39,872 nucleotides of DNA from Patescibacteria group bacterium (lineage in GTDB: Bacteria; Patescibacteriota; Patescibacteriia; UM-FILTER-42-10), in the NCBI GenBank assembly GCA_018825385.1, contig JAHJEX010000054.1, positions 1 through 39,872 on the forward strand, given 5' to 3'. The notes below the pieces were generated by a model. That model did not search any database, had not been told where the DNA came from, and was given only the letters and a program-made list of their open reading frames with translations. Shown one piece after another: positions 2,131 to 39,790 of the stretch (positions are counted from its first letter, which is position 1; each line of letters starts with the position of its first letter). A program made the translations under genes and the position numbers.

Positions 2131-2135
2131 TTCAT

Positions 2136-2798: not shown

Positions 2799-2870
2799 TT
2801 ATATTTTGCAATGATAAACAACATGATATATTTGATTGCTATTTTTTTATTAAACTGTATTCTCCAATAG

Positions 2871-2899
2871 ATTATAGGCTAGATAAATGATTTAATCAA
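2871..2899 (-). promoter_or_regulatory. Sigma70-type promoter inside the glycan cluster
   Basis: On the minus strand, TTGATT (2899-2894) is separated by 17 bp from a perfect TATAAT (2876-2871). The predicted start near 2864 leaves a leader of about 66 nt before the methyltransferase ATG at 2798. It sits in a 135-bp gap between same-strand genes, where an internal promoter would be expected. Read by eye; not tested. Confidence 0.5.
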
Positions 2900-2933
2900 A
2901 TTGGTATAATGGTTTAATTGAATACATAATAAA

Positions 2934-4013: not shown

Positions 4014-4022
4014 ATAAGAAGT

Positions 4023-6738: not shown

Positions 6739-6842
6739 TTGTGATTTAAAAAAATTAGTAAAATAGTATGACTACTGAAATATACAAATTATCTATAAAT
6801 AGCACTTACGATAAGTTTATTAAAGAAAGAATTTCTATCACA

Positions 6843-6862
6843 ATATGTTATGATATGTTATG
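6843..6862. repeat. Perfect tandem 10-bp repeat (2 copies)
   Basis: ATATGTTATG occurs twice head-to-tail just beyond the stop codon of the gene ending at 6871, within a 132-bp intergenic gap. A weak -35/-10 pair (TTGTAT, 16 bp, TATTTT) lies further along the same gap on the minus strand. The repeat could be a binding site or simple slippage. Confidence 0.6.
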
Positions 6863-6870
6863 CTGGCAGG

Positions 6871-8950: not shown

Positions 8951-8951
8951 A

Positions 8952-9962: not shown

Positions 9963-9975
9963 CTGTATTAGTAAA

Positions 9976-10929: not shown

Positions 10930-11797
10930 TATTTTTTACTGTTACTACTAATCTAGATGATCTTTTGAATAGATATGGAATCACAGCAAAAGGAAACAAT
11001 AGCGCAGTGAATAACAAGTAATATTTGTAATTCAATCTTGGAAATTTCAATTTAAAGAAATTATATAGTTCATTAACTGTAAATTCGTTTTTGACGGTTG
11101 TTACAAATGAAGGATCGGCAAACAATATTTTGATAGACTTTTCAGAAAAAATATTTAGATGTCTTGGTGCATCAAATACGTAAGTGTGATTTTTAAACCA
11201 CCTTAGAAATAAAAATGTTGAATTAGGAGTCTTAATAAAAATTTGCCCATTGTCATTAATAAATCCTTTAATTTTATTTACAATTTGTTGAGGATGATAA
11301 AAATGTTCTATTACATGACTCATTATGATAAGGTCATATTTTTCCTCAAAAACCAAATCTTCAAAATTGCCTATCTTTATGTCAATTCCTATTTTGGATA
11401 ATGCTTGCATTTCCATCTCGTCAATGTCGGTAGCAGTCACTTTGTACCCTTTCCGAAAAAAATATTTTGAGAAAAGCCCGCTACCTGCGCCTATCTCAAG
11501 TATTCTAAAATCTTTTCTATTTTGTACTTGACTTAGCACTTTATCTATCAATCGTATTGCTAATAGTTTCCTAATTTTATTAAATAATTTGTTCTCGAAT
11601 TTGCTGTAATTTTTAGGATAAACAAATGCTATATCTTTTTGGTTAAATGGATTGCCTAAGAATAAGTTGTCACATTTAGTGCACTTATTAAAATAAAATT
11701 CTCCAGAAATGCAATTGTATGGATCTTTTATACCTGTATAAAATCTTTCTTTAATCTCTCCACTTTTGCAAATGGGACAGTTTAACAAATTTTTCAT
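10913..11797 (-). CDS. Zinc-ribbon class I methyltransferase
   Basis: A 294-residue protein with an N-terminal zinc-ribbon-like module, CPICKSG at residues 7-13 and CTKCDNL at about 39-45, followed by a class I methyltransferase domain: ILEIGAGSGLFSKYF (about 99-113), VTATDIDEM, KIGNFEDL and LIIMSHVIEHFYHP (about 153-166). The C-terminal segment LLFTALLFPFAVIPYLF is hydrophobic and may touch the membrane. Methyltransferases with such a zinc module are common in bacterial O-antigen and deoxysugar clusters. It is overlapped on both sides (17 bp and 4 bp), so it is firmly part of the operon. Confidence 0.87.
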   Translation of the reverse strand: MKNLLNCPICKSGEIKERFYTGIKDPYNCISGEFYFNKCTKCDNLFLGNPFNQKDIAFVYPKNYSKFENKLFNKIRKLLAIRLIDKVLSQVQNRKDFRILEIGAGSGLFSKYFFRKGYKVTATDIDEMEMQALSKIGIDIKIGNFEDLVFEEKYDLIIMSHVIEHFYHPQQIVNKIKGFINDNGQIFIKTPNSTFLFLRWFKNHTYVFDAPRHLNIFSEKSIKILFADPSFVTTVKNEFTVNELYNFFKLKFPRLNYKYYLLFTALLFPFAVIPYLFKRSSRLVVTVKNNEHSS

Positions 11798-12819
11798 AAT
11801 TTCAGCATATTTATTTTATTTACCAGATCACTGGTATCTTTATTCCTAACATAAATTCCATTATCTTTTAAAATTCTACGATTTTCAGGTAAATCAAAGC
11901 AAATAACTTTTAATCCCATAGCTATATAATTATACAACTTGGCGTTTGCTTCACCGCTATCCGTAGTTTTTAGGGAAATTGCTATATTGCCTAGCTTCAA
12001 ATAAGCGGGTGCTTGCTCATATGGTATTTTTCCAGTAAAAGTAATTCTATTTAGTATACCAAGTTCTTTTGCAATTCTTTGGCAATCCTTTTCTGGGTAT
12101 CCCATAATTAGAAAATGAAACCTATAATCAGTAGATGCAATCGCATTTAAAAGATAATCAAGTCCTTTATATAGTTGTAGGCCACCTAAATAAGTAATCA
12201 CTATTTTATTTTTTGGAAGGTCCAGTTTTGCTGATTGAACTTGAGAATTAAACAGTGTATCATTGGGAAGATCTTCTTCAACGACAATATTTTTAACTTG
12301 AAAATTATCTAAAAGAATTTTTTTTAATCCTTCATTACTAGCAATTATCTCATCAGATTTTTGTATAATAAATTTCTCTAAGCGATAAACTATCTTAAAT
12401 ACCAGACTATTTTTCTTAATTGTCTTCTGCGTAGTCAATTCACCAGTCAAAGAACCTTGGTTGTCAAAAATTAGTTTTTTTCTAAAAATTATTTTCAGAA
12501 AATATCCAATAAAAGCTCCCTCATATAAGTGAGCATATACGACATCATATTTACCAATCAGCATTTCCTTAATAGCTTTGAACAATAAAAGAAAATCTAA
12601 AAATGGTTTGTAAAAAGAAAAACCGGGCTTTGTTTGATGGTAGCCAGGTACTTTAGATATTCTTTTCGTTTCTACCCCATCCATATCTCTTCCTAATGGA
12701 TAGGTGAGTAATAGGACATTATGTCCAATATCTTGTAAATTAAGATAACTATTCAGTACCCTTATATGACAACCCCGATCGGAAAAAAATGGCGTTGGCG
12801 CCAGCATTAATAGCTTCAT
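11794..12819 (-). CDS. GT4-like glycosyltransferase (divergent)
   Basis: A 341-residue GT-B protein opening with MKLLMLAPTPFFSDRGCHIRV, the classic acceptor-domain start. The donor domain shows VITYLGGLQLYKGLDYLL (about 207-224), FLIMGYPEKD and ITFTGKIPYEQAPAYL. The usual EX7E segment is replaced by SGEANAKLYNYIAMGLKVICFD, similar to the PNKLFEYMAxGxP form of one GT4/GT1 subgroup. It overlaps the next gene by 4 bp (ATGA) and the previous one by 1 bp (TAATG). Its role in glycan chain assembly is inferred. Confidence 0.82.
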   Translation of the reverse strand: MKLLMLAPTPFFSDRGCHIRVLNSYLNLQDIGHNVLLLTYPLGRDMDGVETKRISKVPGYHQTKPGFSFYKPFLDFLLLFKAIKEMLIGKYDVVYAHLYEGAFIGYFLKIIFRKKLIFDNQGSLTGELTTQKTIKKNSLVFKIVYRLEKFIIQKSDEIIASNEGLKKILLDNFQVKNIVVEEDLPNDTLFNSQVQSAKLDLPKNKIVITYLGGLQLYKGLDYLLNAIASTDYRFHFLIMGYPEKDCQRIAKELGILNRITFTGKIPYEQAPAYLKLGNIAISLKTTDSGEANAKLYNYIAMGLKVICFDLPENRRILKDNGIYVRNKDTSDLVNKINMLKL

Positions 12820-13802
12820 TAGGATTTAGCATCTGAATTAGCTTCATCATCTTCATACTTATTCTCGATTATTTCCTTTATTGAGTAAGTACTCCTTTTT
12901 TCGTTATAGTATGTCTTAACAGCAATATCTGCCAGCAAACCGGAGATGAAAAGCTGAATCCCTGTTAAAACCAGAAAGACAGCAATTAATGGCCAAATAC
13001 TATTTTGAAGAGCAATTTTACCTAATATTCTTGCCACTGCAAGATACGTTCCTAAAAGCATTCCTAGAGTTCCAGATATGATTCCCAAACCTCCAAATAA
13101 GTGAAGTGGCCTCCCTGAATATTTCCGCCAAAACCAAACTGAAATCATATCGATTAAACCTTTTAATACTCTTTTCCAGTTGTATTTTGTTTTGCCTGTG
13201 GTTCTGGGGCGATGATTGACCTTTATTTCAGCAATTCTAAATCCCAGCCATCGAAGAATCCCAGGAATAAATCGATGAATTTCTCCGTAGAGAGTAAGAT
13301 TTTTAAAGCATTCAGCCTTATACGCTTTTAAAGAGCACCCTGAATCGTGTATTTTGTCATTGATAAAAAATTTTCTCAAAAAATCTGCACCTCGAGAGAA
13401 AAATCTTTTTGAGAAATCATCCTTTCTGTCAATCCTCCAGCCAGAAACCATATCATAACCCTCAGACATCTTTTTAATTAGTTTTGGAATATCTACAGGG
13501 TCGTTTTGGCCATCTCCGTCCATAGTTATGAATATCTCTCCCTCTGCATTCTTGAATCCTGCGTCTAATGCTGCAGTTTGACCGAAATTTTTTCTAAACC
13601 TTATTATCTTTATAGGTGATAGAGAATTAAGTTTTTCAAAAGTTTTGTCGATTGAGCCATCATCAACAAAAATAATTTCATAGGGTTGCTGCATTTTATT
13701 CATCGCGTCTTTGATCTCACTAAAAAGCGGCTGCACTGATTCTTCCTCATTGTAAACCGGAACTATTACAGAGTATTTATATTTTTTCTCAATATCACTC
13801 AT
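12819..13802 (-). CDS. GT2 polyprenyl-phosphate glycosyltransferase (GtrB/ArnC/DPM1-like)
   Basis: A 327-residue membrane GT2 enzyme. The soluble part holds YSVIVPVYNEEES, IFVDDGSIDKT, NFGQTAALDAGF, the metal site FITMDGDGQNDP (about 92-103) and RPRTTGKTKYNW (about 198-209). Two transmembrane helices follow at roughly 236-258 and 268-293. This matches enzymes that load a sugar onto polyprenyl phosphate for use outside the membrane (glucose, mannose or aminoarabinose types). It is second in the leftward operon, 5 bp after the epimerase. It implies that at least one sugar is added extracytoplasmically by a GT-C partner not present in this window. Confidence 0.9.
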   Translation of the reverse strand: MSDIEKKYKYSVIVPVYNEEESVQPLFSEIKDAMNKMQQPYEIIFVDDGSIDKTFEKLNSLSPIKIIRFRKNFGQTAALDAGFKNAEGEIFITMDGDGQNDPVDIPKLIKKMSEGYDMVSGWRIDRKDDFSKRFFSRGADFLRKFFINDKIHDSGCSLKAYKAECFKNLTLYGEIHRFIPGILRWLGFRIAEIKVNHRPRTTGKTKYNWKRVLKGLIDMISVWFWRKYSGRPLHLFGGLGIISGTLGMLLGTYLAVARILGKIALQNSIWPLIAVFLVLTGIQLFISGLLADIAVKTYYNEKRSTYSIKEIIENKYEDDEANSDAKS

Positions 13803-13807
13803 AAGTT

Positions 13808-14761
13808 TTACTTATAGTAGTCTTTATACCAGTTAATAAAATTTTTAATTCCCAATTCCACACTGGTTTTAGGATTGAAGCCAAGCATTTTGTTTGCCTT
13901 CGTTATATCAGCATATGTTTTCACAACGTCGCCAGGCTGAAGCGGCAATAAATTCCTTTTTGCTTCAATTCCAAGCTCTTTTTCAATAACTGAAATGAAG
14001 TATTCAAGCTCAACCGTCTGGGAATTACCAAGATTAAAGATTTCATAATCGTGTGGTTTCTCCAAAGATTGTATTACTCCATCAATAATATCATCTATGT
14101 AGGTAAAATCACGCTGATGCTTTCCATGATTGTAAACATCTATCGGTTCACCGCTAAGGATTTTCTTTGTAAATTTATAATATGCCATATCCGGCCTACC
14201 AAAAGGACCATAAACTGTAAAAAATCTTAGGCCAGTTACATTTAGTTTATATAGGTTGTGATAAACATGTGCAAGCAATTCAGATGACTTCTTTGTGGCC
14301 GCATATACCGAAACAGGGGAGTCTACAGGATCATTTTCAGAAAATGGTACCTTTCTGTTCCCACCGTATACTGAAGACGACGATGCGAATACGAAGTTGC
14401 TGATATCGTTGTCTTTTGACAGCTCCAGTAGGTTTAGTGTGCCTTGGATGTTTACTTCCTGATAGCTAAAAGGATCATTAATCGAGGCTCTTACTCCGGC
14501 CCTGGCTGCTAAATGACAAACTCGATCTATCTTGTATTTCTTGAATATCTTCTTTAAGCCTTCGAAATCACAAATGCTTATTCGATGGACTGGAAAGGTG
14601 TAATCTCCTAAAAACTTTGATATTCTGTCTTCTTTGATTCGCGGGTCATAGTAGTCATTGAAATCATCCACGCAAACTATGCTTTCTCCACTTTCTAACA
14701 GTCTTTTCGATGTGTGAGATCCAATAAAACCTGCGCCACCAGTTACAAGAGTTGTACCCAT
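13808..14761 (-). CDS. UDP-glucuronate 4-epimerase-like NAD-dependent epimerase
   Basis: A 317-residue extended short-chain dehydrogenase. It has the NAD motif TGGAGFIGS (about 7-15), the DDFNDYYDPRIK segment typical of CapI/LpsL-type UDP-glucuronate epimerases, catalytic Ser in FASSSSVYGG, YAATKK as the YxxxK pair (about 155-160), and FFTVYGPFGRPDMAYYKF followed by KHQRDFTYIDDI. The expected reaction is UDP-glucuronate to UDP-galacturonate, supplying an acidic sugar. UDP-galactose or UDP-GalNAc epimerisation is less likely given those segments. It is the first gene of the leftward glycan operon, facing rmlA. Confidence 0.85.
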   Translation of the reverse strand: MGTTLVTGGAGFIGSHTSKRLLESGESIVCVDDFNDYYDPRIKEDRISKFLGDYTFPVHRISICDFEGLKKIFKKYKIDRVCHLAARAGVRASINDPFSYQEVNIQGTLNLLELSKDNDISNFVFASSSSVYGGNRKVPFSENDPVDSPVSVYAATKKSSELLAHVYHNLYKLNVTGLRFFTVYGPFGRPDMAYYKFTKKILSGEPIDVYNHGKHQRDFTYIDDIIDGVIQSLEKPHDYEIFNLGNSQTVELEYFISVIEKELGIEAKRNLLPLQPGDVVKTYADITKANKMLGFNPKTSVELGIKNFINWYKDYYK

Positions 14762-27775: not shown

Positions 27776-28960
27776 CTATTCAGTTTTTTTTGGGCGAAAG
27801 ACAACTAGCACAATCACCACGATCAAAAGTAGTACACCAAAGATTGCTACGGTTGATGTAAGTGAAGTTTTCTCTATATCTGAAAGCTCTGGGTTAGGTA
27901 ATTCAAGTTTTTTCTTCACGATGTGACCTGAATTATCAGCAAGCAACGTATAGCCATTATTAGCTTTAAATCCGTCTGTAAGCCCATCGTTACTTGTATC
28001 AGGGTCATATCGGTTTGACCCAAAAGCGTCTTCTACAGTATCCGGAATCCCATCGTTGTCCGAATCAATAGCCTGCTCAGCACCTGCAAATCTTGCACCA
28101 TTAATTGCTTGAATAATCTTTTGATCAGGCGAGCGAGCTGGAGTGTTGTTATCATCGATAAGCGGGTTGAATTCGTGTTCTTTCTCAAAACCGTCGGTAA
28201 GTCCGTCATTATCTGTATCTGGATCATTTTGGTCTGTCCCTGTTTCAATTTCCTCAACATCAGATAAGCCGTCCTCATCAGTATCAGGAGTATTTGAGAC
28301 TGGTGCATTTAAATTGGAATTAGTATTTCCATTATCATTAGTAAGTATGGGACTATTTGCATTTCCATTAATATTCAGATTCAAATTGGATGGAATGTTT
28401 ACGTTAGCATTTTCAGAATTAGTGTTTTGATTAGCATTGAAATTAGTATTTTCATTTGTATTTATGTTAGTGTTCTGATTTGTGTTTTGATTTTGGTTCA
28501 CATTATAGTTCCCAGGAGGTGTGCTGTTGGTATTTTGGTCAAAATCTGGAATACTACCGCCTGCGTTATCAACGTATATCCTATTAATATCACTGAGATA
28601 AGTTGAGTTATTTGCATCAACAGCAACAGCGTGTACACGATAAACACCGTCAATTGACTCATCAGTACTCCATGAATAATCCCATACATTATTTCCAGCA
28701 TCTACACCTTCGTAGGTAAAGGTGAATCTGCCAACTTCATCTATAAAGTAAAACTCAACCTTAGACACAGCCGAACTAGTTTGCGCACTGGCATATATCT
28801 CACCACTCAATAAAGTGCCATTTGATGGATTCAGAAGAGAAACTTGGATTTCAGCACTCATGACCTGAGATGCGAAAAATAAATTAATAAAGAGCAGGCC
28901 CGCAACTGTTATTACTACAATCAAAAATGTTGGAATAGTGATGGTTTTAAGTATTCTCAT
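27776..28960 (-). CDS. Bitopic surface protein with Asn-rich stalk and calcium-type DxDxDG repeats
   Basis: A 394-residue protein from ATG 28960; GGGAGG lies 10 nt upstream, which decides this start over an in-frame TTG at 28978. Order: N-terminal hydrophobic helix/signal (about 8-35), an Ig-like beta domain (about 38-132, VSLLNPSNGTLLSGEIYAS to YLSDINRIYVD), an Asn/Thr-rich linker (about 138-222), acidic DxDxDGxxD repeats like thrombospondin type 3 (DTDEDGLSD, DTDNDGLTD, DSDNDGIPD, DTSNDGLTD; about 224-335), and a C-terminal membrane helix (about 364-387) with RPKKTE tail. It follows three pseudopilin genes. An adhesin or pilus-associated surface anchor is inferred. Confidence 0.8.
   Translation of the reverse strand: MRILKTITIPTFLIVVITVAGLLFINLFFASQVMSAEIQVSLLNPSNGTLLSGEIYASAQTSSAVSKVEFYFIDEVGRFTFTYEGVDAGNNVWDYSWSTDESIDGVYRVHAVAVDANNSTYLSDINRIYVDNAGGSIPDFDQNTNSTPPGNYNVNQNQNTNQNTNINTNENTNFNANQNTNSENANVNIPSNLNLNINGNANSPILTNDNGNTNSNLNAPVSNTPDTDEDGLSDVEEIETGTDQNDPDTDNDGLTDGFEKEHEFNPLIDDNNTPARSPDQKIIQAINGARFAGAEQAIDSDNDGIPDTVEDAFGSNRYDPDTSNDGLTDGFKANNGYTLLADNSGHIVKKKLELPNPELSDIEKTSLTSTVAIFGVLLLIVVIVLVVFRPKKTE
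28297..28550. repeat. Degenerate Asn-codon repeat tract
   Basis: Irregular repeats of AAT/AAC with ACT codons (minus-strand reading) encode the NxNxNTN stalk of the surface protein. Unit length varies and no spacer structure exists, so it is a coding low-complexity tract open to slippage and length change between strains. Confidence 0.7.
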
Positions 28961-28962
28961 GA

Positions 28963-30447
28963 TTACTTTTCCTCCCAAGAAATAATTGCGTATTCACCAA
29001 CTGTAGGAAAATTCGGGGGTGGTGCGTAAAAAAGATTAGAATCAAAATTCAAATTTCTAAACAGATAACCAGTTCCATCTGTATAAGCAAATCCATAGCG
29101 GTCATTTGAGGCAAGTGAACCAAACAGCGTTAGAGTGTCTCTGTATACATAGCTTGCGCAACCAGCAGGACTTTGAGTGTATCCAGACCTGTTTGGGTAA
29201 TAATATCGTCCTACACGGCCATTTTGCGCTATTACAGACGCATCAATCCTCAGGTTGTCTTCACTGAAAAAGCCAACAGAGATGTCAGTTTGTGCGATAA
29301 GGCCTATTGCGTCAGTTCCATCATAATTTATGTATTCCAAATCGTTATTAACTACGATAGTCGCATCTCCTGATGCCAGAGGCTCTCTGGCAGCAATAAG
29401 CGTAACTCTCTGGCCATCAACTTGTCCGTCAACCCAAACATCATCCTCCACAAAAATAATGTAATTAGTTGGCATTGGCAAGCCTATTGAACTCTGGCTT
29501 TCATAAGTAAACGCACTTTCATTTCCAATTGACCAAATATCTGAATAAGCAAACCACCAAAACCACCATCGATAGGAGCAACTACTTTGGCTGGTAACAC
29601 GAGTAATATCTACTGTGTCATCCGGATTAAAATGTATGTGATAGCCTTGAGCACCTGAAGCACCAAGATATATTCCATTGTCAATTGCTCTTGCCTTCAG
29701 ATCAGCTAAATCTGTTGTTATGCCATTAAAATCAATTGGCGCTACGGGAAAAAGTCTGCCAGCTCCAAATACATCTGGTCGGCTGGGAACAGCAGCAGGT
29801 GGCTGGGGGTCAACAGGCGAAATGTGAGTATGCACTCCAAACTCATCACCACCACCATGGTCCGGATCATTGTATTGATCACGGGTTGAGGAAATAATAT
29901 TATGTGCGTACCCATCAAATCTTATTCCATCGTTGGAATGAACAGGACCCCATATTTCTGTGCCCGTGCCAAAACGCATTTCATCGTTTGCAACCACAGC
30001 AAAACTAGAAAAAGAGGGATTACCTAATTGAAGTGCAATTGTCCTTTTGGTTTTTGGGAAATCTATTAAATAGCCAGTTGACTCTATCGTAACGACTGTA
30101 GAGCCACTTTCCGGTGGAATGATATTTAGGGAATATTCGCCAATCAAATTTCCATTAATGTCATAATATTCGTGAACATACGGACCCGGTTCTCCAGTAC
30201 CATCTGTAAAATCATCAGTAACGTGGGCTAGATGCCAGCGATAGTATGTGATACCAGCCTCTGCAATTTCCAATGCTTTTTGATCTCTAATTTTTGCATT
30301 TGTAACTTTTGCCTGACTAACAACATATCCAGAAGCAGCAACAAGTAAAACAACAAATATACTTGAAAATACCAAAAGCATCACTAGTGCAAAACCAGTC
30401 TGATTTACATTGGTTAGATGTTTAAACTTGTATCTTGATTTGCTCAC
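28963..30447 (-). CDS. PilX/GspK-like pseudopilin lacking Glu+5
   Basis: A 494-residue protein with GTG start, 4 bp after the upstream gene. The N-terminus has a prepilin-like leader ending at Gly18 before FALVMLLVFSSIFVVLLVA; position +5 is Met, not Glu, as in PilX/GspK-type pseudopilins. EIAEAGITYYRWHLA (about 66-80) is the PilX N-terminal domain pattern. The C-terminal bulk is beta-rich, including FGTGTEIWGPVHSNDGIRF (about 155-173) and a tryptophan-rich segment WWFWWF at 294-299. It probably caps a pilus tip with the two neighbouring pseudopilins. The start codon is not fully certain. Confidence 0.75.
   Translation of the reverse strand: MSKSRYKFKHLTNVNQTGFALVMLLVFSSIFVVLLVAASGYVVSQAKVTNAKIRDQKALEIAEAGITYYRWHLAHVTDDFTDGTGEPGPYVHEYYDINGNLIGEYSLNIIPPESGSTVVTIESTGYLIDFPKTKRTIALQLGNPSFSSFAVVANDEMRFGTGTEIWGPVHSNDGIRFDGYAHNIISSTRDQYNDPDHGGGDEFGVHTHISPVDPQPPAAVPSRPDVFGAGRLFPVAPIDFNGITTDLADLKARAIDNGIYLGASGAQGYHIHFNPDDTVDITRVTSQSSCSYRWWFWWFAYSDIWSIGNESAFTYESQSSIGLPMPTNYIIFVEDDVWVDGQVDGQRVTLIAAREPLASGDATIVVNNDLEYINYDGTDAIGLIAQTDISVGFFSEDNLRIDASVIAQNGRVGRYYYPNRSGYTQSPAGCASYVYRDTLTLFGSLASNDRYGFAYTDGTGYLFRNLNFDSNLFYAPPPNFPTVGEYAIISWEEK
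29551..29568. repeat. Tandem 9-bp repeat coding WWF-WWF
   Basis: AAACCACCA occurs twice in direct tandem (plus-strand reading). On the minus strand it encodes Trp-Trp-Phe twice in the pseudopilin, a recent small duplication in frame. Confidence 0.8.
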
Positions 30448-30451
30448 AGTA

Positions 30452-31045
30452 TTAGAAGTTTGTTTTTAGATTTCTTATCATAATGCTGGTTTCTATAGAT
30501 ATTTGGTCGGGTGGAAGATTTGGATCAATATCTACATCGAATTTCATATGCACTAGTCGCACTTCTGCTAAATTGATCGGGTGAGTTAACGGGTCCTCAA
30601 TTCCTGTATAGTTTTCATCAAAGTACGTAAAAATTGAATCAATATTTCTAATATTTTCAACAACAGTTTCTATTACTTCGTCTGCACTCGGAGGGTCTAT
30701 GATACCTCTTTGAAAGTTTGTTCCAGAAAGAAAATACCTTAACCTCTCTCTGCTGTCGTCACCATCAACATCAGAGTAAAATGTAATTGATTGTTCCTCA
30801 GCATTGGCAAGAAGATAAGCACCGGTATCGGCGTTCTGTGCAGCTCTTAATTCTTTAGCTACTGATGTCATTACTTTGCGTAATGTATCCTGCGCCAATG
30901 CTTGATCACGTGACTGATTGAATAAATCGTGCCCTTGCAAAACAAATTGATAAATTATAGTCGTGAGTACCCCCATAATCCCGACAACAACAATTATTTC
31001 AATTAATGTAAATCCCGGCTTTGATTTTTGATGTTTCAAAATCAT
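30452..31045 (-). CDS. Type IV pseudopilin (PilW/GspJ-like)
   Basis: A 197-residue prepilin. The leader ends KPG and the mature N-terminus is FTLIEIIVVVGIMG with Glu at +5 (residue 16), cleaved after Gly11 by a prepilin peptidase not in this window. One hydrophobic helix (about 12-33) leads to the globular part, with LFNQSRDQALAQDTLRKVMTSVAKELRAA (about 48-76, read in parts), a pattern typical of PilW/GspJ. Its ATG directly follows the stop of the giant pseudopilin gene without a gap. It probably belongs to the minor-pilin tip complex. Confidence 0.85.
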   Translation of the reverse strand: MILKHQKSKPGFTLIEIIVVVGIMGVLTTIIYQFVLQGHDLFNQSRDQALAQDTLRKVMTSVAKELRAAQNADTGAYLLANAEEQSITFYSDVDGDDSRERLRYFLSGTNFQRGIIDPPSADEVIETVVENIRNIDSIFTYFDENYTGIEDPLTHPINLAEVRLVHMKFDVDIDPNLPPDQISIETSIMIRNLKTNF

Positions 31046-33226
31046 TTATAATGGATTTAGAAAGTATTCCGATTGTGTAGTTCCGTTAACTGTAACGGAA
31101 GTATTCAATACTTCATAACCGGCAAGAGTGATATCTATTGAATAGGTGTCAGCGTCCAGTCCGCTGAAAAATACTTGTCCAGGAGGAATGCATGCTGATG
31201 TGTAGCCGAGCTGTAGGCTGGTGACAATGGGGGAGTAAGCTATGTTTTCACTGGACAAGAATACTTTATACTTTGCATATTGGTCGCCGTTATGGCCCTC
31301 ATGAATTTGGGTCCCACTTGTTGCATAGTAACTTCCACTTGTTCCATCTGGGCCGATAAAACCCCATGTTGAGTTGTCCGTATTAGTAGCTAGTTGAACT
31401 TTCATGCTTTCTAAACCAGTTTCAGGTTGCTGTGCAAAAGGGGTCCAGGTTAGTGTTCCAAAAGTGCTTGTAGTGCCTGTGTTAAAAGAAGAAGATGTTA
31501 GTGATCCAGATGATTGAAATGCTTCAATACTGTATGAAATTGTTATATCTTGAATTGCTGGTGTTACTAGAGGATCAATCGTTGAAAGTTCAGCCCTAAA
31601 CATCAAATCTCCACCAGTAGTAACGAAATCATGCTCTACGCCAACTGTCACTGGCTCAAAATTAATTCCACCGTTTGCCGATATGAAATATGAAATTGTT
31701 TGACCATCTAACGTCTCATTCACAGAAAGCGTTGCTTTTGTTAGCTTACCAAGTTCTGTATTAAGCTTTGTAGTTTGAGCTACTCCATTAAGCATATATT
31801 CACCAGCATTGTCCGCAAGCTGTATTTGCTCAAAGGCTGTGTTCCAATCTGCAGTAGTTGCAGTTGCATCTTTATAGTTATCTGTTGAAAAACTATCGAA
31901 AAAATTACCAGGAGTTTCAAAAGAAGAAAGAATAAGGTTCCCTGGCGTCGAAGTAACATCAACTGTTCCACTATCAATCTCGTATTTAGTTGAATCACTA
32001 TAGTCTGATTGGCCACTTCCTCCTGACCAGTCATTCTGCAGGAAAAAACCATAGCCAGTTATTTTGGATTCATCGTAGCCGGATTTACTCAATCTAACAT
32101 CTGCAGCAGTTAATGCGATCTCAGTTCCTGCATCTTTGACGGAAACGCGTAATGAATTAGTAGTATGATCAGCTAAAACAAGTGATGTAGTTTGAAATGT
32201 GTTGGGCAAAATATTAAGTAAGACCGGAGGAATTATTCCAGCAATATCATAATCAGTTGCTGTTTCTAGCAAAGTGTAGCTGTCCCATTCCAAATCATCT
32301 AATTCAAGAGTTCCTTCTGAATTTGTGGGTGGTTCAGAAGAATACTTTAAAGTATCAGGATCAGTTCCTATCAGTTTTTCTCCCCAGATTGCAAGAGAAA
32401 TATTTGGCATCATTTCGCATGCGCTACCAACAGTGTTAATGGTTAGTGAACTTACAAGATCAATTGCAAAACTGGCTTCTGTGACATCTTCTTCAACAAT
32501 TGTTAAGTCCGGCTTGATGGGGTGGGGGAGATTAATTAGATCAACTGCGTAAGTTGAATCATTGCTGTACGAATCTTTAGAAACCTCTACGTGATAGCCT
32601 CCAACACTTGGTGGTAAGCTAAGAACCTGCAGATTTCCATCATTGTCTGTTGTATTTGTAATGTCTATCCAAGGATCTACAAGCGTGTTTGTAATATGTA
32701 CTGTTGCCTGCGGAACAGGTTGTCCCGAGGCATTGAAAACTTGTATTAAAAGTGAGCCTGTATTCTCTGCAGACTCCAATCCTTTTGGCGCAACTAGCGT
32801 TGATAGCAATACAGGATCTGCGAGCGGTTTATTCCACTTAACACTAACTTCAACCTTCTTATAGTCGTTTGGGGTCGTGTCTTGAGGTTTTCCCACGATT
32901 GTACCGGCAGCATTGCCATCAAAAGGATCGTCGTGAAAGTCAATTCGAGTCTCAACGACAAATTCGAAATTATTTCTTAGCAGAGTTGTGGTGGACGGAA
33001 GATTACCAGGAGGCCAACCAGTGGTCGTTCCAACATCTGCATAGGGCATATTTCGTACTATTTCCAGCTTCTCGTTGGCGATGGCAGTCGCCGTCACTTT
33101 TGATCTTGACATAGCAAGCGCCTGGATGCCTCTATCAAAGCCTGAAATTATAAAAACACTGGATGTAACAAAAATTCCTATCACAACAATCAATTCGATT
33201 AGACTAAAACCTTTTTGTTGTTTCAT
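31046..33226 (-). CDS. Giant type IV pseudopilin with Ig-like/carboxypeptidase-regulatory-like domains
   Basis: 726 residues from ATG 33226; an ATG at 33247 would add seven residues but would sit almost at the predicted transcript start. Leader MKQQKG, then mature FSLIELIVVIGIFV with Glu+5. AIANEKLEIVRNMPYADVG (about 53-71) is the PilV/GspI pattern. Beyond residue 165 come beta domains: SGQPVPQATVHITNT with GGYHVEVSKDSY (carboxypeptidase regulatory-like), more beta repeats, and a final GLDADTYSIDITLAGYEV at the C-terminus. Ordinary pseudopilins are 100-250 residues. The extra beta domains suggest an adhesin presented at the pilus tip. First gene of its operon. Confidence 0.85.
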   Translation of the reverse strand: MKQQKGFSLIELIVVIGIFVTSSVFIISGFDRGIQALAMSRSKVTATAIANEKLEIVRNMPYADVGTTTGWPPGNLPSTTTLLRNNFEFVVETRIDFHDDPFDGNAAGTIVGKPQDTTPNDYKKVEVSVKWNKPLADPVLLSTLVAPKGLESAENTGSLLIQVFNASGQPVPQATVHITNTLVDPWIDITNTTDNDGNLQVLSLPPSVGGYHVEVSKDSYSNDSTYAVDLINLPHPIKPDLTIVEEDVTEASFAIDLVSSLTINTVGSACEMMPNISLAIWGEKLIGTDPDTLKYSSEPPTNSEGTLELDDLEWDSYTLLETATDYDIAGIIPPVLLNILPNTFQTTSLVLADHTTNSLRVSVKDAGTEIALTAADVRLSKSGYDESKITGYGFFLQNDWSGGSGQSDYSDSTKYEIDSGTVDVTSTPGNLILSSFETPGNFFDSFSTDNYKDATATTADWNTAFEQIQLADNAGEYMLNGVAQTTKLNTELGKLTKATLSVNETLDGQTISYFISANGGINFEPVTVGVEHDFVTTGGDLMFRAELSTIDPLVTPAIQDITISYSIEAFQSSGSLTSSSFNTGTTSTFGTLTWTPFAQQPETGLESMKVQLATNTDNSTWGFIGPDGTSGSYYATSGTQIHEGHNGDQYAKYKVFLSSENIAYSPIVTSLQLGYTSACIPPGQVFFSGLDADTYSIDITLAGYEVLNTSVTVNGTTQSEYFLNPL

Positions 33227-33255
33227 TGGTATAATTGCACGTTGCATTGAATTTT

Positions 33256-33264
33256 ATTATACCA
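33256..33264 (-). promoter_or_regulatory. Extended -10 promoter of the pseudopilin operon
   Basis: Minus-strand TGGTATAAT (33264-33256) fits TGnTATAAT; the -35 at 17 bp (TTCGAT) is poor. The start falls about 33248-33250, 1-2 nt before ATG 33247 and about 22 nt before ATG 33226, which favours the second as the true start. Confidence 0.6.
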
Positions 33265-33288
33265 TAATATCAGAAAAAATCGAACTAA

Positions 33289-33334: not shown

Positions 33335-34519
33335 ATGAATTCAAAAATAAAAAATAGAATATACCTTGATTATGCTGCAACTACACCTTTGGATCCATTG
33401 GTAGTAAAGGCAATGGAGCCATATTTTGTTACCAAATTTGGTAATCCAAATAGTCCTCATGGTTTTGGACAGGAGGCATTGGCAGCTGTTGATCTGGCAA
33501 GGGAAGTGCTTGCCAGATTTTGTAATTGCTCTATGGGGGAGATTATTTTTACATCTGGTGCAACTGAAAGCAATAACCTTGCTATCCGTGGAGTTATCAG
33601 GAAGTATCAGCAAATAATTGAAAAACCAGAGATTATCACAACAAGAATTGAGCACCCCTCTGTTTTAAACACATGTCGTGATATGGAAAATCAAAATATG
33701 AAGGTGAAATATCTTTCAACAGGTAGTGATGGAATAGTGAAAATTGCAAATTTTAAGAAGCTAATCACTGATTCTACAGCACTAGTAAGCGTAATGTATG
33801 CAAATAATGAAATCGGTACAATCCAACCGATCAGAGAAATTGGAAAACTATTGGAGAATATCAACAAAAATCGCAAGACACCTGTATTGTTCCACACTGA
33901 TGCTGTCCAAGCTGCAGGAACATTAAAATGTGATGTTGACTATTTGCATGTTGATTTGCTCTCACTCTCCGGGCATAAAATTTATGGTCCAAAGGGAGTT
34001 GGTTCGCTATATGTTAAAAACGGTACACCAATTCATGGAATTCAAACTGGTGGTGATCAGGAATATACTTTAAGGGCAGGCACAGTTCCAGTTCCCAATA
34101 TTGTAGGTTTCGGAAAGGCGGTCGATTTGCTCATCTATCATCAAGAGCAGGATAAAAAAAGGATGGAATTTCTGCGTAATTGGACATTCGAGCAGATTGT
34201 AAAATTAATGCCGGATATTAAAGTATCTGGTGACTTAAATAATTCAAGACTTGCTAACAATCTACATTTGCGCGTCGATAAAATAAATGGTGGAGACGTT
34301 ATGTTTCTACTAGACACACAAGCAAGTATAGCCGTTTCTACTGGTTCAGCATGCACGGCCGGAGCACCAGAGCCTTCAAAAGTTTTAACTGAAATTGGGC
34401 TGAATCAAAAACAGTCCCAAGAAGGAGTTCGGGTTACTTTAGGTAGAATGACAACAAAATCAGAAATGAAAAAATTTATTTCCTGTTATATTCACGCTAT
34501 AAATACTTTGAAGGAGTAA
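33335..34519 (+). CDS. Cysteine desulfurase (NifS/IscS family)
   Basis: A 394-residue PLP enzyme taking sulfur from cysteine for Fe-S clusters or tRNA thiolation. Seen are YLDYAATTPLDPLV at the N-terminus, TSGATESNNLA (about 75-85), EHPSVLNT, NNEIGTIQPI, FHTDAVQAAG (about 186-195), the PLP Lys215 in SGHKIYGPKG and the persulfide Cys340 in STGSACTAGA. It is a lone plus-strand gene between two pilus blocks, with no iscU or mnmA beside it. Its stop is one base from that of the convergent small pil gene. Confidence 0.94.
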   Translation: MNSKIKNRIYLDYAATTPLDPLVVKAMEPYFVTKFGNPNSPHGFGQEALAAVDLAREVLARFCNCSMGEIIFTSGATESNNLAIRGVIRKYQQIIEKPEIITTRIEHPSVLNTCRDMENQNMKVKYLSTGSDGIVKIANFKKLITDSTALVSVMYANNEIGTIQPIREIGKLLENINKNRKTPVLFHTDAVQAAGTLKCDVDYLHVDLLSLSGHKIYGPKGVGSLYVKNGTPIHGIQTGGDQEYTLRAGTVPVPNIVGFGKAVDLLIYHQEQDKKRMEFLRNWTFEQIVKLMPDIKVSGDLNNSRLANNLHLRVDKINGGDVMFLLDTQASIAVSTGSACTAGAPEPSKVLTEIGLNQKQSQEGVRVTLGRMTTKSEMKKFISCYIHAINTLKE

Positions 34520-34520
34520 A

Positions 34521-34811
34521 CTACTGAAATGGATTTGAAGAAGGAAAATATATTCTAGTTGATTTTTTAACTTTTTCCTCAGAGTGAGTTATTACTTGCT
34601 CAAAAAGAGTTTGGTTGACAACCTCTTTTTTTCTTTGGATCAAAGCTGGATCAATCGATGTTTGATTAAAAAATGGTATAAATAAGTTTTGATAGAGGAA
34701 GAAAAGGATATAAAAACAGTAAAGAATGATTGCAAGATAAACAACCCGGTGGCCATTACGTTTCACATATGGGAGGTATTTGCCAAAAGAAATTGATGTT
34801 TTCATTTTCAT
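34521..34811 (-). CDS. Small membrane protein at the pilP position
   Basis: 96 residues from ATG 34811, 1 bp past the pilO stop; an ATG at 34865 would overlap pilO by 53 bp and is disfavoured. A cytoplasmic N-terminus (MKMKTSISFGKYLPYVKRNG) leads to one membrane helix (about 22-46) and a polar tail of about 50 residues. It follows pilM-pilN-pilO, where Gram-negatives carry pilP, but no lipoprotein signal or PilP motif is visible. It is probably an accessory of the PilMNO inner-membrane assembly platform. No homologue is recognised. Confidence 0.65.
   Translation of the reverse strand: MKMKTSISFGKYLPYVKRNGHRVVYLAIILYCFYILFFLYQNLFIPFFNQTSIDPALIQRKKEVVNQTLFEQVITHSEEKVKKSTRIYFPSSNPFQ
34602..34632 (+). 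terminator. Intrinsic terminator for the cysteine desulfurase, inside the opposing gene
   Basis: On the plus strand AAAAAGA (34602-34608), a 4-nt bulge, GGTT (34613-34616), a 3-nt loop, AACC (34620-34623), then TCTTTTT and further Ts to 34632. It lies about 83 bp past the desulfurase stop, within the coding region of the convergent small membrane protein. Confidence 0.45.
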
Positions 34812-34812
34812 A

Positions 34813-35358
34813 CTATTGCCAATAAACTTTTGATGAAATTTGGACACTAATTTTACCGACTGCATCTTCGTTTGGAGAATTTTCAGAGGAAAGTGTCATT
34901 GTGTCGATAATTAGATAAAAAGGTTGTTGTTCAATCGCTAAGGCCCAATTGATTAATTCTGTGTACGATGAATTATATTTGATGTTAATAGTGCTCATGA
35001 ACAAGCCTGACTCAAGAGCAATTGGATTTGATAAGCTAAGATCTTGATTATTTATATTGCTTTCTCGAGCTATATTTTCGAGCACTGTGATCAGTTCTAA
35101 AGTATCCTGCTGCGAAAACAATGTTGACGAAACCCTGCCATGATTTGCAGCAATTTCCATTATCTGACGTTCCAGATGTACAAGATCCTGTCTCTGCTGT
35201 GTTATGAATTCATAATTTACCCTCTGATCGTAAATATCTTGATCAAGAGAGATAATGTTACGTTGTTGCGGCAAAATCACTGCAAAAACAATTACCAGTA
35301 CTGCAGTTATCCCTAGTGCTGCAATAATCAAAAGTTTAATTTTTGGTGTTAGCTTCAT
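34813..35358 (-). CDS. pilO: Type IV pilus assembly protein PilO
   Basis: A 181-residue bitopic protein: short basic N-terminus MKLTPKIK, one membrane helix (about 9-29), a coiled-coil segment (about 35-70, SLDQDIYDQRVNYEFITQQR), then a ferredoxin-like C-terminal domain with ELITVLENIARESNI and ELINWALAIEQQPFYLIID, the PilO pattern. It partners PilN in the inner-membrane alignment complex. The start overlaps the pilN stop by 4 bp (ATGA), so the two are co-translated. Confidence 0.85.
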   Translation of the reverse strand: MKLTPKIKLLIIAALGITAVLVIVFAVILPQQRNIISLDQDIYDQRVNYEFITQQRQDLVHLERQIMEIAANHGRVSSTLFSQQDTLELITVLENIARESNINNQDLSLSNPIALESGLFMSTINIKYNSSYTELINWALAIEQQPFYLIIDTMTLSSENSPNEDAVGKISVQISSKVYWQ

Positions 35359-35921
35359 AGTGAGCCTACCTCAATCTGAGGATTAATAGTTACTTGTCCG
35401 CTGAGTGTGAATGAAATATTTTCTTTCGAAAGTAAATTTGAAATAGGGGACTCGATATTACTATAAAAAGGAGATTGTTCTAGATTATTCTTGAATGCCA
35501 ATAATGAATCACGCGTGTCAGCATTGCCGGAAAATTGGAACGTCAAATTGGTTTTTTGGATTGTAAAAGAGGTTAGCGTAACACCATTTGCCACAGTCTT
35601 TGCAGTTTCAATCAAAACAGGTGACCATGCGACATATTCAGATTGTATTGCACTAACATTTCCTAAAAGCGAATTAAAGTTTTGCACGGTCTGACCAAGA
35701 TTCAATGATTTTTCATTCTCGGTTTGCTCTTTTAAAGTGAGAGTGTCTGACGCAATAGTATCCAGCTTACTTTGCAAAACCATTTGAGAGGCAAATAGGG
35801 TTGCCGCAATAATTATTAATACCACCACAGACAATACTATTATCGACTGCACTAATCGATAATTCTTTTGGAATTGATTCGCGTCCCGCTGTGCGGGGGA
35901 TGTAAAATTAAGTGTTATCAT
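35355..35921 (-). CDS. pilN: Type IV pilus assembly protein PilN
   Basis: A 188-residue bitopic protein. The N-terminal MITLNFTSPAQRD is a variant of the short PilN motif that docks into PilM, followed by one membrane helix (about 27-48, VQSIIVLSVVVLIIIAATLF), a coiled-coil segment (about 50-85) and a ferredoxin-like domain with FTIQKTNLTFQFSGNADTRD (about 120-139). It overlaps pilM by 14 bp and pilO by 4 bp. It forms the PilM-PilN-PilO platform linking the cytoplasmic motor and the pilus. Confidence 0.86.
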   Translation of the reverse strand: MITLNFTSPAQRDANQFQKNYRLVQSIIVLSVVVLIIIAATLFASQMVLQSKLDTIASDTLTLKEQTENEKSLNLGQTVQNFNSLLGNVSAIQSEYVAWSPVLIETAKTVANGVTLTSFTIQKTNLTFQFSGNADTRDSLLAFKNNLEQSPFYSNIESPISNLLSKENISFTLSGQVTINPQIEVGSL

Positions 35922-36945
35922 GATTTAATGCCCTAAGTGCAAGCCCAATAGCAGTTGCATAAGATGATTGTGTTTCTACGGTGATAAGATTTGTGTCCTT
36001 ATTTGAAATATTTAGGAGTGAATCTCCCTTTTGGATCTTCAAGCCAAGTCTCAAAACTAATTCATTTTGTAGCTCAAGCAGGTTTGCGCCACCGCCAGTT
36101 AGTAGGATGCTTGAAACTGGGTTTTGGCCAGTGTGATGTGCCTGATAAAATTCAATTATTTGCTTCACTTTTTCAACTAATGATTCTAATTGATTGCTAA
36201 GTATCGATGCTACTGCTCCTTTACCAACATTTTTGCTTAAACCCCCTATCCTTTTTGCTTTCTCTGCCTCCTCATAAGAAAGTGACAGATTTTTCATAAT
36301 CAAACTTGTCATTAGATTGCCTGAAATCTCAGTAAGAGCAGATGTAAATTGAATAGTTGAATGATCAACAATAACAAAGCTTGTACGATCAAGACCAATA
36401 TCGATTACTAGAACGCTCTCCTTTGAATTTAGAGGTTCTTCAGGCATTATGGCTCGAACAATTGCAGCTGATTCAATTTCTAAAACGTACGGAACTAGCT
36501 TCGCTTTGCCAATTACATCTTGATAGGATTCTACGATTGACTTTGGTACTGCTCCTACTAAGATGGATTCACTCTCTGTCCCTTTGTTTACTATTTGCCA
36601 GTCAATATACATTTTTGAGAGATCGTCAGGTATATGGTTTGCAAGTTCAGACTTAATGATTTCGTCTGATGGTTCAGAATTTTCTTTCATGTGCAAGACT
36701 TTTATGAAACTTTTCCGCTCTGGAAGACACGATACAACCTTTTTGGAATGTGGTCTCCGTGGTTTTGCGGCTTGAACAAGATTAGAGATTATAGATTGCA
36801 GCGAGTCCGGTTTGACAATTTCGCCTTCATTGATAATGCCGGGAGGGACCGGAACTTCACTTACAGATTCAATAGAAACACTTTTCCTTTTCTTTTCCAA
36901 GGAAACAAGTCTTAACATCCTGTCACTTATATCTAAACCAAACAT
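35908..36945 (-). CDS. pilM: Type IV pilus assembly protein PilM
   Basis: 345 residues from ATG 36945, 4 bp after pilC; an in-frame TTG at 36963 would overlap pilC and add six residues. It is an actin-like ATPase fold protein: MFGLDISDRMLRLVSL opens as in PilM, with VVSCLPERKSFIKVL (about 67-81), LVIDIGLDRTSFVIVD (about 190-205) and SILLTGGGANLLEL (about 282-295) as phosphate and adenosine motifs. It sits at the cytoplasmic face and binds PilN. Confidence 0.9.
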   Translation of the reverse strand: MFGLDISDRMLRLVSLEKKRKSVSIESVSEVPVPPGIINEGEIVKPDSLQSIISNLVQAAKPRRPHSKKVVSCLPERKSFIKVLHMKENSEPSDEIIKSELANHIPDDLSKMYIDWQIVNKGTESESILVGAVPKSIVESYQDVIGKAKLVPYVLEIESAAIVRAIMPEEPLNSKESVLVIDIGLDRTSFVIVDHSTIQFTSALTEISGNLMTSLIMKNLSLSYEEAEKAKRIGGLSKNVGKGAVASILSNQLESLVEKVKQIIEFYQAHHTGQNPVSSILLTGGGANLLELQNELVLRLGLKIQKGDSLLNISNKDTNLITVETQSSYATAIGLALRALNHDNT

Positions 36946-36949
36946 TGAA

Positions 36950-38053
36950 TTATATTTGTCCAACTAATGAATAAATAGGCATTATAACCGCAAGGGCAAC
37001 TGCACCAACGGCAACTCCAATCACGAGCATTAAAACTGGTTCAATAACAGCAGCCAAATTCTCCATGGTATTGGATACTTCTTCTTCATAAAAATTAGCC
37101 ATGTCTTCTGAAGTTGTATCTAGTGTTCCGGATTCTTCTCCAATATTTATAATTTGTGTGATTAATGGAGGAAACAGATCAGGATTCTTTTCTAGCGTTT
37201 CTCGGACCGAGATTCCCTTTTTTAATTCTTCTGCGGATTGCTTTAAATAGTCCTTATAAATAACATTCTTAGATGCCCTCGAAATAATCAAAAAAGTCTC
37301 AACAATTGGAATATCTGTTTTTAGTAGCGAGCTTAAGCTTCTAGTGAAATTAGCCAGATTAACCTTTTTTATAATTGGTGAAACAATTGGTATTTTAAGC
37401 AGCAAGGCGTGATATTGCCTTTTGCCTTTTACAGTTTTTAAGTAACGAGCCAAAAGGAAAATGACTAAAGCGACAGCGATTATAACATAAATTAAATATG
37501 TAGACATGAAGTCGGTCAATCCTATCAAAACTCTTGTAGGTAAAGGTAAGTCGGCTTGTGCGTCCGTGTAGAGTGATGTGATGTTCGGTAGAACGAAGAT
37601 CACCATGGCTATGCCAATTGCAACCATAGCGATTGTAACTATAGCAGGATAAGTCAGTGCATTTTTTACTTTTGCTCTAAGTTCGTGACTTTTTTTAAGT
37701 TGAATACTAAGTCTGCGTAATACTTCATCCAACTTACCACTTGCTTCGCCAGCTTCTAACATGCTAACAAAAGTTTCGGAAAATGTTTTGGGATGTTTTC
37801 CCGCAGCCTTTGAGAGTGGAGTGCCTTTTTCAACATCTTCACGCATTTCTTGGATAGTTTTCCTGAATCCTTCATGTTCAACTTGCAGATTAATTGTTTC
37901 TAAGGCTTTTGCAAGAGAAAAACCAGTTCTTACCATGATTTCTAATTGCTGAACAAAGAAAAGTCTTTGGACAAGCGTAATTCTTTTCCGAGGGCCAAGA
38001 AAACCTTGCTTTTTTTTCTTTTGCTTGTTTGCTTTTTTTTGTTCTTCTGCCAT
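36950..38053 (-). CDS. pilC: Type IV pilus inner-membrane platform protein PilC
   Basis: A 367-residue polytopic protein with two T2SF domains (about 28-155 and 235-360). The first has QLEIMVRTGFSLAKALE and FVSMLEAGEASGKLDEVL; the second has FTRSLSSLLKTDIPI and QIINIGEESGTLDTT, the repeated E-x-SGxLD signature. Membrane helices are near 138-160, 180-203 and 335-357. The N-terminus is strongly basic (KKANKQKKKKQGFLGPRKR). It starts 3 bp after pilB and forms the core through which PilB drives pilin insertion. Confidence 0.93.
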   Translation of the reverse strand: MAEEQKKANKQKKKKQGFLGPRKRITLVQRLFFVQQLEIMVRTGFSLAKALETINLQVEHEGFRKTIQEMREDVEKGTPLSKAAGKHPKTFSETFVSMLEAGEASGKLDEVLRRLSIQLKKSHELRAKVKNALTYPAIVTIAMVAIGIAMVIFVLPNITSLYTDAQADLPLPTRVLIGLTDFMSTYLIYVIIAVALVIFLLARYLKTVKGKRQYHALLLKIPIVSPIIKKVNLANFTRSLSSLLKTDIPIVETFLIISRASKNVIYKDYLKQSAEELKKGISVRETLEKNPDLFPPLITQIINIGEESGTLDTTSEDMANFYEEEVSNTMENLAAVIEPVLMLVIGVAVGAVALAVIMPIYSLVGQI

Positions 38054-38056: not shown

Positions 38057-39790
38057 TTAATCCTTTGTTACACGGAGCACTTCCTCAATTGTAGTTATCC
38101 CGCTTTTTGCTTTTATAAACCCATCTTGGATCAGACTAATAAATCCTTGCTTATTTGCTTCTTCATAAAGTTTTTCAGGAGGTGCTTGATTAACAATGAG
38201 TTCCGCCATTGCTTTATTAATCTCCAAAATTTCATAAATGCCCATCCTCCCTTTATATCCTTCGTGATTGCATTCTTTGCATCCATGGCCGCGATAAAAA
38301 AGTAATGAACTCATTGGTGAATCAGCCGAATCAATAATTCCCTCTCTTTCCATTACTGACAGAATATCCTTAAAATTAAGCTGTGATTCCAATTGAGTAA
38401 TATTACTCTTAGTTAGTTCATAACTCTCTATACAATGAATACATACTTTTCTTACTAAACGCTGTGCCACAATAACGTTTGTAGTAGAGGCAACAAGAAA
38501 GGGAGGAATGCCCATTTCCTGAATTCGGGGAAGTGCACCAACAGCGTCATTGGTATGAAGCGTTGATAATACTAGATGCCCCGTCATGGCAGAATGGACA
38601 CCAATCTCCGCAGTTTCTTTATCGCGGATTTCTCCAACCATGATAATATTTGGATCCTGCCTGAGCAATGAACGTAATCCTTGAGCAAATGTTAGGCCAA
38701 TCCGGGGATTAACTTGCGTTTGATTTATCCTAGGCATTCGGTACTCGATTGGGTCTTCAATTGTAGAAATATTTACCTTTGGATTATTCAGAATATTCAG
38801 GATAGTATAGAGTGTAGTCGTTTTGCCTGACCCTGTAGGCCCCGTAACTAAAATCATCCCATGAGGCTTTTTTACCGCTCTTTTAATTATTTTCAGCGGA
38901 TTTGCTAAAAATCCTAGTTGTTCTAATGTAAGAATCTGTGATGATTGGTCTAGAAGACGTAAAACAGTTTTTTCCCCGTCAAATATTGGAATAATTGAAA
39001 CACGAAATGATACTTTATATTCCTTAGATTTTATTTTAAATCTGCCATCTTGTGGTAGTCGGTGTTCATCTAGCTTTAGGTTGGCAAGAATTTTAATCCG
39101 AGCAACTATTCCCGAATGGATTTGTTTTGGTAAAGTCATAGCGTCGCGCAATACTCCATCAATTCGATACCTGACAATAACCTCGTTTTCAGCAGGTTCA
39201 ATGTGAATATCTGAAGCATCTTCAAATATTGCATATTCTAAAATCGTATCAACAATTCTTATTACAGGAAGATCCTTTGCTAACTCCTTCAGGGTTCCTT
39301 TCGCTGAATCCTTTTGGGTTTTGTCATCCTCATGAGTCATTTCATCCACCGTTGCCTTTAAACCTTTGTGATACATCTTCAATGCTTCTGTTATCATCTG
39401 GGGAGAAGTTACATACACGCTTGGTTCTTTTCCAGATTTCTTTTTTATGAAATCAAAAATCTCCAAATCCAAAGGATCAAGAGATGCGATCTTTATTTTA
39501 TCGTCTGTCTGGTCAAACGCAATTACATTGTGAGTCTGTGCAATTGATTCAGGTAAGAAATTTAGTATATCCTTTCGGATTGTCAGAGTTTCAAGACTAA
39601 TAAATGGGACATGCAAAGACTTTGCATATAATTCATACAGTGATTTCTCACTTATAATTTTTTCTTTATAAAGATGCTCAACCCAGTCTTTGTTTTGCTT
39701 TTTTGCTTCTGCCTGCGATTCTGATACGTCGGCTTCAGAAAGAATTTTATTTGTGAGTAGGAGCTTCTCTATTTGTTTTAACGGTAGCAT
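38057..39790 (-). CDS. pilB: Type IV pilus assembly ATPase PilB (GspE family)
   Basis: A 577-residue secretion ATPase. The N-terminal MshEN-like domain (about 1-150) contains FISLETLTIRKDILNFLP. The catalytic core has DASDIHIEPAENEVIVRYRIDG (around 193-214, read in parts), Walker A GPTGSGKTTTLY (about 315-326), the Asp-box LLRQDPNIIMVGEIRD (about 370-385), the His-box MTGHLVLSTLHTND, and a zinc-binding pair of CxxC motifs, CIHC (about 447) and CKEC (about 505). It powers pilus extension from the cytoplasm. First gene of the pilB-C-M-N-O operon behind a strong promoter. Confidence 0.95.
   Translation of the reverse strand: MLPLKQIEKLLLTNKILSEADVSESQAEAKKQNKDWVEHLYKEKIISEKSLYELYAKSLHVPFISLETLTIRKDILNFLPESIAQTHNVIAFDQTDDKIKIASLDPLDLEIFDFIKKKSGKEPSVYVTSPQMITEALKMYHKGLKATVDEMTHEDDKTQKDSAKGTLKELAKDLPVIRIVDTILEYAIFEDASDIHIEPAENEVIVRYRIDGVLRDAMTLPKQIHSGIVARIKILANLKLDEHRLPQDGRFKIKSKEYKVSFRVSIIPIFDGEKTVLRLLDQSSQILTLEQLGFLANPLKIIKRAVKKPHGMILVTGPTGSGKTTTLYTILNILNNPKVNISTIEDPIEYRMPRINQTQVNPRIGLTFAQGLRSLLRQDPNIIMVGEIRDKETAEIGVHSAMTGHLVLSTLHTNDAVGALPRIQEMGIPPFLVASTTNVIVAQRLVRKVCIHCIESYELTKSNITQLESQLNFKDILSVMEREGIIDSADSPMSSLLFYRGHGCKECNHEGYKGRMGIYEILEINKAMAELIVNQAPPEKLYEEANKQGFISLIQDGFIKAKSGITTIEEVLRVTKD

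Follow-up and report, generated by a model that had tools for sequence, protein, structure and literature searches.

A probable I/PilV-type modular type IV minor pilin of a Patescibacteria group bacterium and its putative role in ligand binding at the pilus tip

In the DNA stretch analysed here (the window; 39,872 nucleotides of contig JAHJEX010000054.1 from a Patescibacteria group bacterium), a gene on the minus strand (31046..33247, stop included) encodes an I/PilV-like minor prepilin of 733 aa. We consider it likely that this protein is a modular I/PilV-type type IV minor pilin, most likely one that binds a ligand at the pilus tip. Its nature as a modular minor pilin is very likely, and it is likely the I/PilV-type subunit of a tip complex.

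The open frame lies on the minus strand, while the plus-strand reading of 31046-33247 is full of stops. A preliminary description had located the gene correctly without giving its strand, and used an inner ATG at 33226, from which the product would have 726 aa. From the outer start, the N-terminus reads MQRAIIPMKQQKG^FSLIELIVV, with a class III leader at residues 1-13 (MQRAIIPMKQQKG; 33209..33247, minus strand) placed by the N_methyl match and by alignment with the leaders of relatives; from the inner ATG, the predicted leader would be 6 residues long. The hallmarks of a class III prepilin are present and kept in relatives: KQQKG^FSLIELIVVIGIF, a polar leader ending in Gly, a hydrophobic helix and Glu5. 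Together with the Pfam N_methyl match above cut-off (residues 8-27, E 2e-5), these features uphold the prepilin N-terminus claimed earlier. Judged from its sequence, the leader would be processed by PilD, and the genome holds one prepilin peptidase homologue (Peptidase_A24 on contig C60, E 6.1e-11). By eye, an extended -10-like element, TGGTATAAT (TGnTATAAT), was seen at about 33257-33265 on the minus strand, some 10 bases upstream of the outer ATG (33247); the promoter scan did not list this element. Lying so close to that ATG, it would argue for translation starting at the inner one (33226).

Two genomes of the same family carry full-length homologues with 64-66% identity, and other genomes carry homologues with 40-47% identity. 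Since they share length and order with the window protein, the frame is neither an accidental ORF nor a fusion created by a frameshift, and the idea of a protein unique to the source organism was likewise rejected. A comparison of the whole 733-aa protein with PDB sequences gave no match.

The domain core was defined by an alignment of 24 sequences (the window protein and 23 relatives). It consists of the pilin head and three domains, D1, D2 and D3, is common to the family, and measures about 439-458 aa where uninterrupted. D1 (residues 160-272; 32432..32770, minus strand) is a CarboxypepD_reg domain (PF13620), matched above the Pfam cut-off at residues 169-232 (E 3.8e-9). D2 (residues 276-362; 32162..32422, minus strand) is SpaA/prealbumin-like, based on a profile match to PDB 9lty (E 1.1e-4), an isopeptide-forming fimbrial protein. 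SpaA was detected in D2 of 7/21 members and stands above cut-off in the insert-free relative L052; in the window protein, the matches to SpaA (residues 307-331) and to PEGA (residues 695-724) are both sub-threshold. D3 is encoded in two halves, of which the first (residues 362-397; 32057..32164, minus strand) was placed by alignment to the uninterrupted D3 of relatives and the second (residues 684-733; 31049..31198, minus strand) by alignment and the weak PEGA match. hhalign relates D1 to D3 (97.6%), and both are CarboxypepD_reg-like in L052. The mainly beta chain of about 700 residues with a carboxypeptidase-regulatory-like domain, as read in the preliminary description, is thereby confirmed. 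Structure prediction of the C-terminal domains, proposed there as a check, was run as a full-length AlphaFold model, which reached a pLDDT of 36 (10 fragment rows, shallow alignment) and was used for no claim; the head alone (residues 8-160) gave a usable model. Domains of the D1-D3 type are also common as non-binding spacers.

The pilin head (residues 8-160; 32768..33226, minus strand) was modelled with AlphaFold using five relatives. The model has a mean pLDDT of 68.8 and shows an alpha-1 helix of 50 residues (9-58 in model numbering, corresponding to about 16-65 of the full 733 aa) and then four beta strands; the mature chain has its Glu5. Its best PDB matches by Foldseek are I-type pseudopilins, headed by chain R of the XcpGHIJK filament (116 residues), EpsI:EpsJ and XcpV:XcpW, with probabilities of 0.93-1.00 but weak E-values (best 4.9e-3). 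Nearly all top matches are EpsI:EpsJ or XcpV:XcpW entries, and the matched chains of 76-116 residues are presumably the I subunits, judging from this length, which is too short for J, and from what is known of these entries. When the N-terminal regions of 21 relatives were compared with NCBIfam, ComGE was matched in 14/21, GspI in 11/21 and PilV in 6/21; the window protein itself matches the curated GspI, PilV and ComGE models below their cut-offs. Membership in the I/PilV group is thus carried by the head fold and by the adjacent J- and K-type partners, and not by the curated sequence models; the head matches and the gene order together support an I/PilV-type subunit. A tip adhesin of the PilC/PilY1 kind does not fit, as the Pfam scan found no PilY1 propeller and the protein has a prepilin leader.

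The gene neighbourhood is that of a type IV pilus cluster. The genes upstream on this strand are pilB (38057..39790; T2SSE E 8.2e-132, with MshEN), encoding the extension ATPase, pilC/gspF for the platform protein (36950..38053; Pfam E 9.5e-56), pilM (35908..36963; Pfam E 1.4e-42), pilN (35355..35921; Pfam E 2.2e-6), a pilO-like gene (34813..35358), assigned from gene order and a sub-threshold Pfam match (E 0.0063), and a small ORF. Directly downstream, also on the minus strand, follow genes for a PilW/GspJ-like minor prepilin of 197 aa (30452..31045; N_methyl E 1.3e-6, with GspJ and ComGF among its families) and a PilX/GspK-like protein of 494 aa (28963..30447; PilX_N weak at E 0.007, best member 1.5e-4), and then the gene for a TSP3-repeat protein. 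The modular pilin and its two partners form a GspI/PilV-, GspJ/PilW- and GspK/PilX-like trio. Partner profiles found PilW-like and PilX-like genes directly downstream in 43 of the 45 loci with enough flanking DNA to test both partners, and the usual order in most relatives is pilB-pilC-(modular pilin)-PilW-PilX-pilM-pilN-pilO. Based on the alignments, Glu5 is kept in the modular pilin and the PilW-like protein and absent from the PilX-like protein, in the window as well as in relatives. Absence of Glu5 is expected of a K-type cap such as GspK. In described systems, filament assembly is initiated by the HIJK set, which also forms the cap (PMC9934059). As an I-J-K-like trio is the tip-capping complex in known systems, the gene order supports placing the 733-aa pilin at the pilus tip, where it probably sits.

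Several further features of the region were recorded. A divergent cysteine desulfurase gene (33335-34519, plus strand) lies between the pilO side and the modular pilin; the pil cluster is interrupted by it in the window and in the loci L037 and L038 and is unbroken in most relatives. The small ORF after the pilO-like gene (34521-34865, minus strand; 114 aa) has no family match and is kept in L037 and L038, and weakly in L054. The TSP3-repeat protein (27776-28978, minus strand; 400 aa, TSP3 E 2e-11) has an Asn-rich spacer and a C-terminal membrane segment. Its start overlaps the end of the PilX-like gene, an adjacency kept in two further genomes (G001 and G002), and it is possibly a further surface component. 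Before the pil cluster, a long run of minus-strand genes (28-14761) resembles, from the translations, glycosyltransferases, methyltransferases and sugar epimerases and possibly serves a surface glycan or glycosylation.

The same evidence could be read as pointing to a short filament of the type II secretion or competence kind, in which the trio would start a pseudopilus serving to export proteins or take up DNA, with cargo or DNA, rather than a host, as the ligand of the beta domains. The best head matches are indeed T2SS pseudopilins, ComGE and GspI models match the N-termini of relatives, and the beta-solenoid module of Thermus ComZ is thought to bind DNA (PMC8179133). However, the cluster encodes PilM, PilN and a PilO-like protein as in type IV pili, and the genome has several PilB/PilT-like ATPases, so that we regard this alternative as improbable. 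Across the source genome (G000; contigs C60, C89, C20 and C32), nine N_methyl prepilin matches were found, two of them in the window, and the PilB/PilT-like ATPases lie outside the window, alongside the one prepilin peptidase; with so many prepilins and ATPases, the organism may have two or more type IV filament systems.

Returning to a type IV minor pilin, we compared sizes across the family, as the preliminary description had suggested. Lengths range from 439 to 1526 aa, a spread that comes from additional modules at three constant positions: within the head at ~112-118 (site A), between D1 and D2 (site B) and within D3 (site C). The window protein, unusual in length for a pilin and typical of this family, has its D3 split at site C by a linker and two modules, J1 and J2; in the sister clade, the insert consists of the linker and J2 without J1. 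The linker (residues 398-446, GFFLQNDWSGGSGQ...; 31910..32056, minus strand) is conserved in all site-C members. Both modules were delimited by alignment: J1 (residues 446-574; 31526..31912, minus strand) is absent from relatives of ~590-707 aa, and J2 (residues 574-685; 31193..31528, minus strand) is related to J1 in the C-terminal halves (hhalign 94.6%). J1 matched neither Pfam families nor PDB profiles, and for J2 the PDB profiles gave weak, unrelated-looking matches only. Since 2/17 members match F5/8 type C weakly, a beta-sandwich is plausible for J2. Stretches related to J1 and J2 also occur in proteins of 2,030-3,773 aa from the same class (L057, L058, L061 and L072), some of them with kelch or fibronectin III domains, and scans of viral contigs with P0001 and J2 returned no relatives.

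The protein has two cysteines, Cys277 at the start of D2 (codon 32417..32419, minus strand) and Cys686 just after the insert (codon 31190..31192, minus strand). All 18 aligned site-C members have both, and the six insert-free relatives lack them, suggesting a disulphide between C277 and C686 that probably holds the site-C insert together at its base. On a tree of the head and D1 (51 rows), site A changed once, site C once and site B at least five times, and a single clade was rejected for B. A reading of the cysteine pair as repeated co-evolution with the insert is weakened by this result: as site C and the pair arose once, the pair is conserved within one clade and was not gained repeatedly.

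In the relative L092, site B holds a ConA/laminin-G lectin domain (Laminin_G_3, E 1.1e-18), and in other relatives it holds repeats of the BNR/BNR_2 (L055), PD40 (L096) and SBBP (L094) types. Lectin and propeller modules at this position are as expected of a binding arm, which the modules probably form. An alternative is an assembly-priming spacer, in which the I subunit starts the filament, the beta domains space or shield the tip, and the adhesin is the PilX-like protein, the TSP3-repeat protein or encoded elsewhere. In Streptococcus sanguinis and in type II secretion, the I-type subunit has a structural role and no extra modules (PMC9934059), the modular candidate adhesin of TM7x is PilX2 and not PilV (PMC12206443), and insert-free relatives of ~440 aa exist. 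A pure spacing role, however, would hardly account for the repeated changes at site B and the lectin and propeller modules found there, and we judge the spacer unlikely, if less so than the secretion or competence filament. The long adhesive arm at the tip proposed in the preliminary description is thus supported in part: the tip placement gains support from the I-type head model and the I-J-K-like trio, and the modules of relatives are of kinds that a binding arm would carry.

Next, we considered how widely the family is distributed. A profile of the head and D1 matched 201/287 sampled genomes of the phylum at E 1e-5, the weaker matches (E 1e-5 to 1e-30) being mostly short ordinary pilins, and about 60 of the 287 genomes reached E < 1e-30 among the matches listed. 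Within the same class, 92/144 genomes match somewhere, with many of these matches being insert modules in other proteins. One genome of this class shares an identical contig with Parcubacteria group bacterium GW2011_GWA2_40_23, which places the window in a Patescibacteria (CPR) class that this bacterium belongs to. The "giant pseudopilin" of the preliminary description is therefore as large as stated but far from a one-off. One genome (G411) carries two strong copies, on C4 and C12, with frames of 466 and 464 aa, which are possibly paralogues.

Comparing our results to previous studies, the kind of protein is a known one. Modular pilins have been defined as a class of >1,200 proteins in 264 architectures, in which PF13620 is one of the frequent additional domains and several CPR proteins are included (PMC8179133), and the 733-aa protein is a member of this already described, widespread class, combining N_methyl and CarboxypepD_reg domains that are both above cut-off. 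The patescibacterial modular pilins of that InterPro-based survey share its prepilin N-terminus joined to CarboxypepD_reg or other domains and include an 860-aa protein from Falkowbacteria. The bimodular minor pilins PilB and PilC of S. sanguinis likewise join a pilin module to non-pilus domains (lectin, vWA), are modelled at the tip complex and have been shown to bind ligands (PMC8179133, PMC9934059); the ConA-like lectin module of PilC and the site-B insert of L092 share a superfamily. In contrast to PilB and PilC, the protein described here has a prealbumin-type stalk, in-chain modules at fixed sites and no vWA domain, and modules are carried by the I/PilV-type subunit, whereas the I-type counterpart in S. 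sanguinis, PilA, is non-modular. Nanosynbacter lyticus TM7x has comparable patescibacterial minor pilin sets of PilV, PilW and PilX, in which PilX1 carries a jelly-roll-like domain and PilX2 a beta-propeller, and loss of PilX2 about halves host binding, so that the pilus with this propeller-bearing subunit promotes attachment to the host; pilV1 appeared essential in TM7x (PMC12206443). There the modules sit on PilX, while here the variation lies on the PilV-like subunit. The large minor pilins CofB/TcpB and ComZ have beta-rich extra domains, that of ComZ being inserted into the pilin sheet, a placement comparable to site A (PMC8179133); their extra domains differ from those of the 733-aa pilin, and no sequence relation to it was detected. 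The head fold, the order I-J-K and a third subunit without Glu5 recall GspI/EpsI/XcpV with GspJ and GspK, but GspI is short and has no extra domains, whereas the 733-aa pilin carries a chain of beta domains. A limited search of the open literature found no description of an I/PilV carrier with a conserved prealbumin-type stalk and three fixed sites across a phylum.

In the mechanism that we propose, the head, with its alpha-1 helix and small beta-sheet as in GspI, XcpV and EpsI, would join the J/PilW-like and K/PilX-like proteins in a priming and capping complex. The prealbumin/CarboxypepD-type stalk of D1, D2 and D3 would project from this head, with binding modules at fixed points facing outward; in the window protein, J1 and J2 would interrupt D3, with the base of the insert probably held by the C277-C686 disulphide. 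The pilin could bind a carbohydrate or protein displayed on another cell, or a surface, and attachment of an episymbiont to its host by means of this pilin is plausible.

A further-reaching idea, which we put forward tentatively and hold to be possible rather than probable, is that in Patescibacteria the I/PilV subunit, which elsewhere merely starts the tip complex as a structural part, has turned into a standard scaffold for display with three fixed insertion points. Lectin, propeller and beta-sandwich modules would be exchanged on it between lineages, thereby helping to set which cell is recognised, and the C277-C686 pair would be a clade-specific staple that allows a domain to be split by ~280 residues. 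If this is true, the family would be one of the main factors in cell recognition by the pilus, and the I subunit, besides K or PilY1, could carry tip effectors. Insert-free relatives provide natural controls, and the module boundaries are defined for expression and ligand tests. For partner-cell recognition by Patescibacteria, the family represents a concrete and widespread candidate outside Saccharibacteria.
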